DNA of 64,000 nucleotides from Ruminococcus bromii (GTDB lineage: Bacteria > Bacillota > Clostridia > Oscillospirales > Acutalibacteraceae). The notes beneath the pieces are model-generated. The model was given only the letters and a program-made list of their open reading frames with translations, was not told the DNA's origin and did no database searches. Shown here piece after piece: positions 3,620-63,728 of the stretch; the first letter of the stretch is position 1, and each line of letters opens with the position of its first letter. The DNA lies in assembly GCF_002834225.1 (NCBI RefSeq), contig NZ_NNSR01000056.1:1-64000 (forward strand). Reading direction: 5' to 3'. A program made the position numbers and the translations under genes.

Positions 3620-4972
3620 TCAGAGATTGCGGTAATGCTTGACATTTCTCTTCTTCTTTTTGCGTTTCGAACTGATTTTTGAAATAATAAGGTAAATAAT
3701 CAGGATAAGAACAATGAGTGCGATAACCACAATAAACCAGTATGATTGGAACACTGTGCCGATAACATTGAACACATAAAGGATTCCGCTGAGTTCTATT
3801 TTTTCGCCTGCAACAACATTAACCTCGGCAAGCTTTTGCTTTTTGCTGTTTTCGTCTGCCTTATAGTAAATTGTAGCCTTGCCGACTACCGTGCCTTTGT
3901 CGATTGGAGCGTCAATACTTTCGGGAACATCCTGTTCAATAATTATATTCTCATCAGTGCAGTCTTTAGGAACAATTGCGCTGAGGTCGGTTTCGGGATA
4001 AAGCAATGTACTGTTTTTGCCCCAAGCAAGGTTGACCTTTACTTCGCAAAGCGGCTTTGACGATGTTGCTACCGTGTTCATTTCAAGACTTGTCAATGCC
4101 CATCGAAAAAGGTCAGCGGCATCGGTCATTGTTGCGTAATCCTCGGTCACACCCTCTTCATAAGGAGCGTGAAGAAGAATTGCCATATATGAATAGCCGT
4201 CAGCCGACGCTGTTGTTACAAGGCATCTGCCTGCCTCGTTGGTTGTACCCGTTTTGATGCCCTTTGCATACATATAATAATACTCGCCGCCTCGGTTAGC
4301 GTCAATGAGGTAGTTAGTGGTAACAAGGGGTGTATCGTCACCGTCACAAGTGTATGTGCAGGTGTTTGTGATTTCTTCAAAACGAGGGAGCGTGAGCGCA
4401 TATGTAGTGATTTTGTACATATCACGGGCAGTTGTATAGTGGTTAGGATCGTGAAGTCCGTCAGGATTTGCAAAATGGGTATTTTTGCAGCCAAGCTCCT
4501 TTGCCTTTTCGTTCATCATCTCAACAAAATTATCAACATTTCCGTCGCCGATATAATCGGCAAGAACCATTGCGGCATCGTTACCCGAGGGAACCATCAT
4601 GCTGTAGAGCAGGTCGATTGCTGTCATACTCTTGCCGACATGATTTTCAACATTTGCAAGGGAACTGCCTGTGTTTTTGAGAACATCAAGAACCGACTGC
4701 TTAATCGGAATTTTTGTGTTGTCAAGGTCGGCAATGTTTTCAACCGCAATTATGTAGGTCATAATCTTTGTTGTGGATGCAGGATAACGCTTTGCATCTG
4801 CATCTTTTTCATACACGGTCTGACCTGAATCCATATTCACAAGCAATATTGAATCCGACTGTGTTTTTACATCATTGGGATAGGACGCAGCACCCGCTGT
4901 TGTAAAGGCGGAACAGATAATGATGCAAAGCATACAGAGAAGTGAAAGTGTTTTGATTGCTGTTTTTCTCAT
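3620..4972 (-). CDS. D-alanyl-D-alanine carboxypeptidase (DacF/PBP5-like)
   Basis: 450 residues with a signal peptide (residues 1-29, ending TTAGAA). The penicillin-binding active-site motifs of peptidase family S11 are all present: S66-TTK, S129-G-N and K240-T-G. The enzyme removes the terminal D-Ala from peptidoglycan pentapeptides outside the membrane. The C-terminal region has a domain like that of PBP5, then a single membrane helix (about 411-433) and a very basic tail. This differs from the amphipathic anchor of E. coli PBP5. It sits between nrdR and recG. Clostridia carry several paralogues, so I give no symbol. Confidence 0.93.
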   Translation of the reverse strand: MRKTAIKTLSLLCMLCIIICSAFTTAGAASYPNDVKTQSDSILLVNMDSGQTVYEKDADAKRYPASTTKIMTYIIAVENIADLDNTKIPIKQSVLDVLKNTGSSLANVENHVGKSMTAIDLLYSMMVPSGNDAAMVLADYIGDGNVDNFVEMMNEKAKELGCKNTHFANPDGLHDPNHYTTARDMYKITTYALTLPRFEEITNTCTYTCDGDDTPLVTTNYLIDANRGGEYYYMYAKGIKTGTTNEAGRCLVTTASADGYSYMAILLHAPYEEGVTEDYATMTDAADLFRWALTSLEMNTVATSSKPLCEVKVNLAWGKNSTLLYPETDLSAIVPKDCTDENIIIEQDVPESIDAPIDKGTVVGKATIYYKADENSKKQKLAEVNVVAGEKIELSGILYVFNVIGTVFQSYWFIVVIALIVLILIIYLIISKISSKRKKKKRNVKHYRNL

Positions 4973-61677: not shown

Positions 61678-63003
61678 ATGAAAAAACTATTTACTATTAT
61701 TGTGTGCAAGGTTCTGAAATTTGTCGGAGGATTGCTCGGCAAGGGCAGCAGTCTGCCGGGACAGATTGCGCTTAAACTCTGCCCCGATATTCTCGGACGA
61801 ATTGAACTGCCGAAATATATTGTTGCCGTAACAGGCAGTAACGGCAAGACATCTACCGTTGAGATGATTGCACATATTCTTTGTGAAAGCGGCAAAAAAG
61901 TTGCCTGGAACAAAGAGGGTTCTAACCAGATTGAGGGCGTTACAACTCTTATTCTCGGCAGTTGTACTCTTTCGGGCAAGGTTAAGTCTGACATTCTTCT
62001 CATTGAAAGTGACGAACGCTTTGCAAAATATACCTTCAAATACATCACACCTACTCACTATGTTATCACAAACCTTTACCGTGACCAGCTCACACGAAAC
62101 GGTCACCCCGAATGGGTTTACAATGCCGTAAAGGAGAGTATTCATCCCGAAACTCAGCTTATTCTTAATGCCGACGATCCGCTTGTTTCGTGCTTTGGCT
62201 ACGGCAGGGATAATGTTGTGTGGTTCGGCGCAGGCAATCTTCCTACCGATACAAAGGACTTTGTCGGCGTTTACAATGACGGTGCATACTGTCCTCACTG
62301 CAAATCTCCGATGACATATTCAAGCTATCACTACGACCACATAGGCAACTATGAATGCCCTAACTGCGGTCTTAAAAGACAGGATACAAGCTACACAGTT
62401 ACATCTGCCGATCTTGAAAAAGGTGAAATTACAATCAACAATAAGTACAAGATTGAACTTACACTCAAATCGCTTTATAATGTTTACAATTTGCTTGCGG
62501 CATTTACCGTTGCTTCAATCACAGGTGTTGACGGCAACACAATTGCAAAGAGCCTGAGCAATTATGTTCTCAAAAACTTCCGTGTTGTAACATTCACGCT
62601 CGGAAACAGAAAGGGTACGCTTGTTACATCAAAACATGAAAACAGCATTTCGTACAATCAGTCACTCAAGCTTGCCGCATCCGACAAGGATAAGTGCGAT
62701 GTTTTGATTATTGTTGACGCAGTCAGCAGAAAGTATTTTACAAGCGATGTTTCATGGCTTTGGGACATCAACTTTGACCTTCTCAAAAGCGACAATGTAA
62801 AGAACATTGTGCTTGCAGGAACATATTGCAACGACCTTGCAACAAGATTTTCTTTCTCAAAAGTTGACAGGAACAAAATCAAGGTTATCAAAGACATTGA
62901 AGAAGCCGTTGATTATCTTGACAATGACCGCAAAGAAAAGATTTATGTAATTACCTGTTTCTCGGACAAGGGTAAATTTCTTGAAAAGGTAAAGGTGGAC
63001 TGA
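61678..63003 (+). CDS. murT: Lipid II isoglutaminyl synthase, MurT subunit
   Basis: 441 residues of the Mur ligase fold: ATP-binding VAVTGSNGKTSTVEMIAHIL (from about 49), NKEGSNQIEGVTTLI and ADDP, with a zinc ribbon insert (CPHC...CPNC) and a C-terminal DUF1727 domain, all as in MurT. MurT amidates D-glutamate of lipid II using ammonia delivered by GatD. gatD starts 2 bases after the stop. All MurT motifs appear intact here. Confidence 0.95.
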   Translation: MKKLFTIIVCKVLKFVGGLLGKGSSLPGQIALKLCPDILGRIELPKYIVAVTGSNGKTSTVEMIAHILCESGKKVAWNKEGSNQIEGVTTLILGSCTLSGKVKSDILLIESDERFAKYTFKYITPTHYVITNLYRDQLTRNGHPEWVYNAVKESIHPETQLILNADDPLVSCFGYGRDNVVWFGAGNLPTDTKDFVGVYNDGAYCPHCKSPMTYSSYHYDHIGNYECPNCGLKRQDTSYTVTSADLEKGEITINNKYKIELTLKSLYNVYNLLAAFTVASITGVDGNTIAKSLSNYVLKNFRVVTFTLGNRKGTLVTSKHENSISYNQSLKLAASDKDKCDVLIIVDAVSRKYFTSDVSWLWDINFDLLKSDNVKNIVLAGTYCNDLATRFSFSKVDRNKIKVIKDIEEAVDYLDNDRKEKIYVITCFSDKGKFLEKVKVD

Positions 63004-63005
63004 TT

Positions 63006-63728
63006 ATGAAAATTCTTCATTTGTATCACGATATAATGAACCTGTACGGAGAATATGCCAATGTTTCCGCACTTGAAAGAATGCTTGAAAAGAGCGGTGT
63101 AAAATTTACAACCGACAGGCTTACCCTGTTTGACAATGCCGACCTCGGCGATTACGATTTTATCTACATCGGTTCGGGTACAGAAAAAAATCAGAAGCTT
63201 GTTTTGCAGGATTTTAAAAAGTACAAGGATTTTCTTGTTGAATATATCAACAGCGGCAAGGTAATTCTTATGACGGGCAACTCGTTTGAAATGCTCGGAA
63301 AAACAATTACAGACTCTGACGGCAAGGTTTATGACGGACTCGGAATTTATGATTTTACAGTTACCGAGCAGAACAAACGCAGAATTACAGGCGATATTGT
63401 TTATACATCTGACATTCTCACAAAACCGATTGTCGGCTTTGTAAACAAATGCAGTGAAATTAAAGGTATTGAAAATCATCTTTTCACTGTTAAACACGGA
63501 CTCGGTGACTACGAAAATGCAAAAGCAGAGGGCTTGAAGGTCAAGAACCTTTTCGCTACTCATGTTACAGGGCCTATTATGATTAAAAATCCGCATTTTC
63601 TTGAATACATTGCTTTGCAAATTTCAAAAAATACGGATGGCTTCAAGCCGTGTACGAATTACCTTGACTACGAAAGAGCGGGCTACGAAATTACTCTCGG
63701 CGAACTCACAAAAAGATTTGAGGAGTAA
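63006..63728 (+). CDS. gatD: GatD-like subunit lacking the glutaminase catalytic residues
   Basis: 240 residues clearly homologous to GatD along its length (LHLYHDIMNLYGEYANV, IYIGSGTEKNQ, GLGIYDF, IVGFVNKC). Where active GatD has CGGYQLLG, this protein has GNSFEMLGK, so Gly91 replaces the nucleophilic Cys. In the later YLHGPLLPKNP motif this has THVTGPIMIKNP, so Thr188 replaces the catalytic His. It probably cannot hydrolyse glutamine. It might be structural, or MurT may use free ammonia. Follows murT closely. Confidence 0.88.
   Translation: MKILHLYHDIMNLYGEYANVSALERMLEKSGVKFTTDRLTLFDNADLGDYDFIYIGSGTEKNQKLVLQDFKKYKDFLVEYINSGKVILMTGNSFEMLGKTITDSDGKVYDGLGIYDFTVTEQNKRRITGDIVYTSDILTKPIVGFVNKCSEIKGIENHLFTVKHGLGDYENAKAEGLKVKNLFATHVTGPIMIKNPHFLEYIALQISKNTDGFKPCTNYLDYERAGYEITLGELTKRFEE

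Follow-up and report, generated by a model that had tools for sequence, protein, structure and literature searches.

Loss of the GatD glutaminase site and remodeling of MurT in a clostridial clade: a possible switch of nitrogen donor

The murT-gatD unit that closes the window (the whole 64,000-nucleotide stretch of DNA that was analyzed) encodes a GatD without either of the catalytic residues of a class I glutaminase and a MurT whose donor side has been rebuilt. Such pairs make up a large clostridial clade, to which it belongs, and the explanation that we favor, while placing it slightly short of an even chance, is that this clade has switched its nitrogen donor. The walls of Clostridia with pairs of this kind probably carry a decoration other than one made with glutamine-derived ammonia.

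MurT-GatD is regarded as a single enzyme that carries out a single reaction, and the presence of the pair in a genome is read as a sign of amidated D-Glu. That reading is unsafe in a family of gut and rumen Clostridia if most of its pairs cannot use glutamine. Wall charge, cross-linking and the muropeptides that reach host NOD sensors from abundant gut bacteria, R. bromii for example, could all be affected by the change, and the pairs described here are a concrete candidate for an enzyme that attaches an amino acid to D-Glu. The MurT-GatD pair as such is known; its glutaminase-dead, MurT-remodeled form is a new variation, and a literature search that covered few subscription papers found no description of glutaminase-dead GatDs.

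The murT-gatD unit

The source genome is a member of the Ruminococcus bromii group, and the closest isolate match to its GatD is that of R. bromii 5AMG (98% identical). Like the lipid II isoglutaminyl synthases of S. aureus, S. pneumoniae, S. pyogenes and M. tuberculosis, the window pair is a two-gene unit with the residues for ATP and acceptor in place; it also shares their architecture of a Mur ligase middle domain and MurT_C with a zinc ribbon, together with a GATase_3 partner that has a C-terminal helix. It differs from them in a GatD that lacks the catalytic Cys and His and in a MurT whose donor-side loops, KNP motif and DNAAD motif are replaced (Table 1). The Pfam matches are GATase_3 only for GatD (63 bits) and Mur_ligase_M plus MurT_C for MurT (MurT_C at 89 bits against a cut-off of 25). 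Both proteins fall far below the NCBIfam equivalogs (GatD, 111 and 107 bits against cut-offs of 400 and 450; MurT, 212 and 214 bits against 800), cut-offs so tight that falling short of them says little by itself.

The coupling of gatD to murT, which had been pointed out in the preliminary description, extends well past this genome: the two genes lie 2 nt apart on the same strand here, and are adjacent and co-directional in 254 of 254 pairs examined. The window genome was searched for a further MurT or GatD, and none was found. A recD2-like gene lies downstream; recD2 and two other genes recur near murT-gatD in near relatives only. No widely conserved partner beyond murT-gatD was found in 20 regions of 12-13 kb and the R. 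bromii-group loci, so that the neighborhood gives no clue to the donor.

Table 1. Features of the murT-gatD unit, in window coordinates
Feature	Position	Strand	Remark
murT, MurT-type ligase, 441 aa	61678..63003	+	donor side remodeled
MurT P-loop TGSNGKT	61831..61851	+	kept; Lys57 = S. pneumoniae MurT Lys59
MurT Asn83	61924..61926	+	kept; = Asn85, acceptor carboxylate
MurT Asp112-Glu113 (Mg/acceptor)	62011..62016	+	kept; clade-specific Arg114 next
MurT channel/acceptor loop RDQLTRNGH	62080..62106	+	canonical RDQLD-R-[YF]-G-E; D139T, Y/F141N, E143H
MurT four-Cys zinc ribbon	62290..62367	+	kept
MurT KHENS	62632..62646	+	for canonical KNP loop; two-residue insertion
MurT DAVSRKYFT	62716..62742	+	for canonical NDxxADG (DNAAD region between GatD site and ATP)
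MurT TCFSDK	62953..62970	+	for canonical (N/T)YTA
gatD, pseudo-glutaminase partner, 240 aa	63006..63728	+	GATase_3 fold, with the C-terminal helix retained (model residues 221-239)
gatD codon 91 GGC (Gly)	63276..63278	+	replaces nucleophilic Cys (S. aureus Cys94); elbow TGNSFE vs ICGG[FY]Q
gatD codon 126 (Arg)	63381..63383	+	kept; matches S. aureus GatD Arg128, which captures glutamine; Arg in 94% of dead family
gatD codon 188 ACA (Thr)	63567..63569	+	replaces catalytic His (S. aureus His189); THVTGP vs TYLHGP

Loss of the catalytic residues of GatD

Alignment of the window GatD with the GatD structures solved for S. aureus and streptococci covers almost its full length (E 1e-25 to 6e-29) and confirms what had been proposed at the outset, the replacement of the nucleophilic Cys by Gly91 and of the catalytic His by Thr188. 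The elbow, AICGGFQ or TICGGYQ in the solved proteins, has become MTGNSFE, and the stretch around the catalytic His, TYLHGP or SYFHGP, has become THVTGP. Both hallmarks of a class I glutamine amidotransferase, the elbow Cys nucleophile and the catalytic His, are missing, and the protein, as judged from its sequence, cannot act as a Cys-dependent glutaminase. Gly91 is present in all 75 readable members of the window's GatD group, in which residue 188 is Thr in 71, Ile in three and Ser in one; across dead GatDs generally (that is, glutaminase-dead ones) position 188 varies among Thr, Ile, Leu, Ser and Val. The gatD frame of the window genome is open and intact, and its dN/dS relative to a 95%-identical homolog (L005) is about 0.06. 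The same Gly in 75 of 75 sequences, taken with this ratio, argues that the loss is neither a sequencing error nor a sign of a decaying gene.

The AlphaFold2 model of GatD (pLDDT 95.9) matches S. aureus GatD as it is found in the complex (6h5e_A) with Z 31.0 and rmsd 2.0 over 238 residues, the C-terminal MurT-contacting helix included. Residue loss, dN/dS and fold match together mark the window GatD as a pseudo-glutaminase that folds and is under selection. Conservation in dead GatDs (n = 170) is highest at the former active site (mean entropy 1.37 versus 2.47 elsewhere, p 6e-13), by a margin about equal to that in active GatDs. Dead GatDs retain the plug Tyr14 and the acidic Asp/Glu16; Glu-Asn-His 146-148, invariant in active GatDs, is replaced in them. 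This constraint on the old pocket would fit either a new ligand or a tight structural role.

MurT retains its ATP and acceptor residues and has a rebuilt donor side

The preliminary description had called murT intact, which is right for the residues that serve ATP and the acceptor and wrong for the donor side, where loops have been rebuilt and new motifs are invariant. In S. pneumoniae MurT, replacing Lys59, Asn85, Asp112, Glu113, Asp136 or Arg140 kills or lowers activity (PMC6085368), and these residues are near 100% kept in dead pairs. Nearly all dead pairs keep the aromatic residue at the GatD interface, and members of the window's group keep the zinc ribbon. The Asp at the GatD site of MurT (D349/D355) is retained as Asp357 in the window and its group, and is Asp, Glu or Asn in 59, 23 and 13 percent, respectively, of the wider clade.

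On the donor side, residue 139 is Asp in 100% of active pairs; in the main dead clade it is without exception another residue (Thr in 74%), Y/F141 is changed to Asn (96%) and E143 to His (94%). KNP has given way to K-H-E-N-S and NDxxADG to DAxSRKYFT, and Arg114 is new beside the acceptor site. The NDxxADG region corresponds to the DNAAD motif, which is situated between ATP and the GatD site and is proposed to contact the stem peptide of the substrate (PMC6113224). The rebuilt motifs are near-invariant and are confined to pairs with a dead GatD; a further GatD loss, in family f69, has left the canonical loop standing. The sum of these changes is a loss of acidic groups (D139, E143 and D352) and a gain of basic ones (Arg/Lys), the opposite of what the binding of ammonium would need. 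The model of MurT (pLDDT 85.7) is least confident in precisely the changed loops and hence holds no information on the donor pocket. Cys427 (in TCFSDK; murT codon 427, window 62956-62958), His143 and His320 are newly invariant in the dead-pair MurT of the window's group.

Distribution and phylogeny

In a survey that used MurT_C as marker and then read the adjoining gatD, the genomes with MurT numbered 34 of 60 (genus), 52 of 150 (family), 42 of 197 (order) and 158 of 291 (class). GatD and MurT searches each match 34 of the 60 genus genomes; the pair is absent from the remaining 26. The 242 distinct GatDs, a set biased to the window's group and therefore yielding counts and not frequencies, include 72 with Cys and His and 162 with Gly and a residue other than His (Thr 85, Ile 41, Leu 25, others 11). 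Gly occupies the nucleophile site in about 170 distinct GatDs across the Clostridia, and roughly three in four MurT-bearing genomes of the family sample have the dead kind. The suggestion that the loss is conserved across the lineage thus holds over a far wider range than R. bromii, but Gly/Thr is not fixed in the order: within the clade only Gly is fixed, Thr being variable, and the window's own genus (7 genomes), family and order include canonical Cys/His pairs.

No genome of the genus, family, order and class samples was seen to contain an active together with a dead pair, as would be expected if both kinds act on the same carboxyl. For the 60 genus genomes, of which 7 have a canonical and 27 a dead pair, zero overlap has a probability of P = 0.011, with the species not independent of each other. 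A few genomes have two dead pairs, from different branches (G026, G633) or the same branch (G569).

Two changes are required to explain the dead and active states on a 151-row MurT tree, one at a main split and the other an extra loss in f69; the branch that holds the active pairs has an SH-aLRT of 98. In the five f69 genomes read, all of which show the loss, Gly or Ala replaces the Cys and Ser or Thr replaces the His, and MurT retains the canonical loop DRYGE; glutaminase loss by itself therefore does not remodel MurT. The MurT changes and the main GatD loss, for their part, trace to one event in the tree, so that the link between them is unreplicated. In one f69 genome the elbow reads AVGNSYP, so that Gly-Asn has arisen again; at this position it may be a structural preference that merely relaxes a strained turn.

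A switch of donor and its alternatives

With a switched donor, MurT and GatD would still form a complex, in which MurT would activate the carboxylate of a lipid-linked wall precursor, most likely the D-Glu α-carboxyl as in canonical pairs. The amine would be taken up directly via the remodeled MurT loop and joined to the activated carboxylate, with a non-catalytic GatD shaping or holding the donor pocket. An amino acid or another small amine would be likelier in this role than ammonia, and would leave a substituted and not an amidated D-Glu. The argument for the switch is made by a Cys/His loss that is fixed in the clade while the fold and the C-terminal helix are kept and the old pocket is still conserved, by new MurT motifs confined to pairs with dead GatD (with f69 as the control), and by the mutual exclusion of the two kinds of pair. 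The preliminary description had left a choice between free ammonia, with GatD as a scaffold, and a different reaction; the remodeling of MurT and the case of Acetobacterium, on both of which our preference for a donor switch also rests, tilt the evidence to the latter.

In type B peptidoglycan, the 2-4 cross-link is made via a bridge amino acid, and not an amide, on the D-Glu α-carboxyl, the same group that canonical MurT-GatD uses. We know of no ligase assigned to that bridge, nor of a demonstrated link between type B walls and MurT-GatD. One of the surveyed genomes (G344) is taken to be Acetobacterium woodii, because its HydA1 shows complete identity over 583 aa with the 7q4v and 8a5e chain, which we assume to be the A. 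woodii protein (HydA2 was of no use here, its nearest solved chain being a relative only); the wall of this organism is presumably of type B, the D-Glu α-carboxyl bearing an amino acid. G344 has a dead pair only (L301), which lies on a distant branch and is without Arg126. The MurE motif is DNPA in A. woodii and DNSR in R. bromii and its sisters. The latter motif suggests diaminopimelate, which makes a full type B wall unlikely in R. bromii; a capping amino acid would be compatible with it. The wall type of Ruminococcus is a blank entry in the table of a 2024 review (PMC11382707), and nothing linking MurT-GatD with Ruminococcus or type B walls turned up in the literature search, in which few subscription papers were covered. 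The more specific proposal, that dead pairs constitute a family of peptidoglycan amino acid ligases acting on the D-Glu α-carboxyl, comprising the enzyme that is missing for the first step of type B cross-bridges (Acetobacterium) and accounting for a so far unseen substitution of D-Glu in R. bromii and many gut Clostridia, is speculative and on balance unlikely. The distant branch of the A. woodii pair and the DNSR of R. bromii count against a donor switch in general, as do the ammonia-dependent activity of a GatD mutant considered below and the recurrence of Gly-Asn in f69.

An archaeal pMurC-type ligase (6vr7), an amino acid ligase by its NCBIfam naming, is the next nearest solved relative of the window MurT, with which it has the zinc-ribbon region in common (E 3.7e-28). 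It keeps the Mur-type DH motif and, to our knowledge, does not need a GatD. As a guide to an amino acid loop it was dropped, because its RDHLKNI does not match RDQLTRNGH.

The free-ammonia explanation, which we consider quite possible though doubtful, is that MurT makes D-isoglutamine from cytoplasmic ammonia with GatD as a scaffold, the new His143 of the loop helping to bind or deprotonate ammonium. Mammalian carbamoyl phosphate synthetase I has kept a class I glutaminase domain as a scaffold that has lost its Cys, and uses free ammonia; it differs in that its synthase is unrelated and its donor is known to be ammonia. Closer to hand is the C94G mutant of S. aureus GatD, in which the nucleophile substitution is identical to that in the window: glutamine use is abolished, ammonia-dependent MurT activity at pH 8.5 is unaffected, and MurT still requires GatD for it (PMC3266927). 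The window MurT retains the interface residues and the counterpart of D355, and an absolute need for ammonia is reported for R. bromii (PMC4446752, citing Herbeck and Bryant 1974). On the other hand, S. aureus MurT-GatD does not use ammonia at neutral pH (PMC3266927), and the point mutant retains His189 and a canonical MurT, whereas here both residues are gone and MurT has changed with them. The altered charge of the donor side would be ill-suited to ammonium; the f69 pairs, which are the cleaner candidate for true ammonia-driven amidation, kept the canonical loop; and the occurrence of canonical pairs in the same genus means that an ammonia-rich habitat alone is no explanation of the switch.

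That the carboxylate itself is a different one, not peptidoglycan D-Glu but, for instance, another lipid-linked or cytoplasmic compound, is improbable. The location of Arg114 by the Mg/acceptor site and the changes in the DNAAD region speak for it, as do the genomes with two dead pairs and the 26 of 60 genus genomes with none; the retention of Asn85, Asp112 and Glu113, the mutual exclusion of active and dead pairs among the sampled genomes, and the lack of conserved neighbors pointing to another pathway speak against it. It is far less probable still that the pair is a relic that is being lost and does little: its patchy occurrence within the genus and a gatD that is split in a few loci are what decay would produce, but the frames are open under a dN/dS of about 0.06, the new motifs are invariant over very wide divergence, and the two genes are always paired. 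Finally, a glutaminase retained through a shifted Cys-His pair, the finding named beforehand as fatal to the claimed loss, can hardly be entertained in spite of a His186 that is common in the R. bromii group two residues ahead of the old His, since Gly is the elbow residue in nearly all main-clade members and the columns of the window group and of the dead family hold no conserved Cys able to stand in for the nucleophile (the best, Cys149, is Cys in 83% and 54%, respectively).

Variant pairs and related genes

The window genome also encodes one short FemAB-family protein (334 aa; G000:C74:56174-57112, L356) that is without the middle of the profile and is a possible candidate for a tRNA-dependent wall peptide transferase. 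The f69 loci with independent loss of the GatD Cys and His next to a canonical MurT loop are L275, L279 and L359-L361; in both f69 genomes checked (L362/L363), murT-gatD is immediately followed by a FemAB-family gene.

Several other pairs depart from the canonical form. An 863-aa open reading frame (L259, in G257) is a natural fusion of a canonical-type MurT and a GatD that lacks the Cys and keeps the His; its canonical-type loop and retained His led to its being set aside as a guide for a model of the complex. In G270, a second MurT-GatD pair (L310/L364) with Gly for Cys and the His kept accompanies an intact pair, and in family f39 (L276, L288) the nucleophilic Cys has become Ser, with the His again kept. 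Three rabbit-gut genomes (L068, at about 3960-4700, L069 and L070) have in common a change of frame close to codon 90 of gatD. In the second frame TGNSFE is directly preceded by a separate ATG, both halves are conserved, and GatD may be made in these organisms as two pieces.
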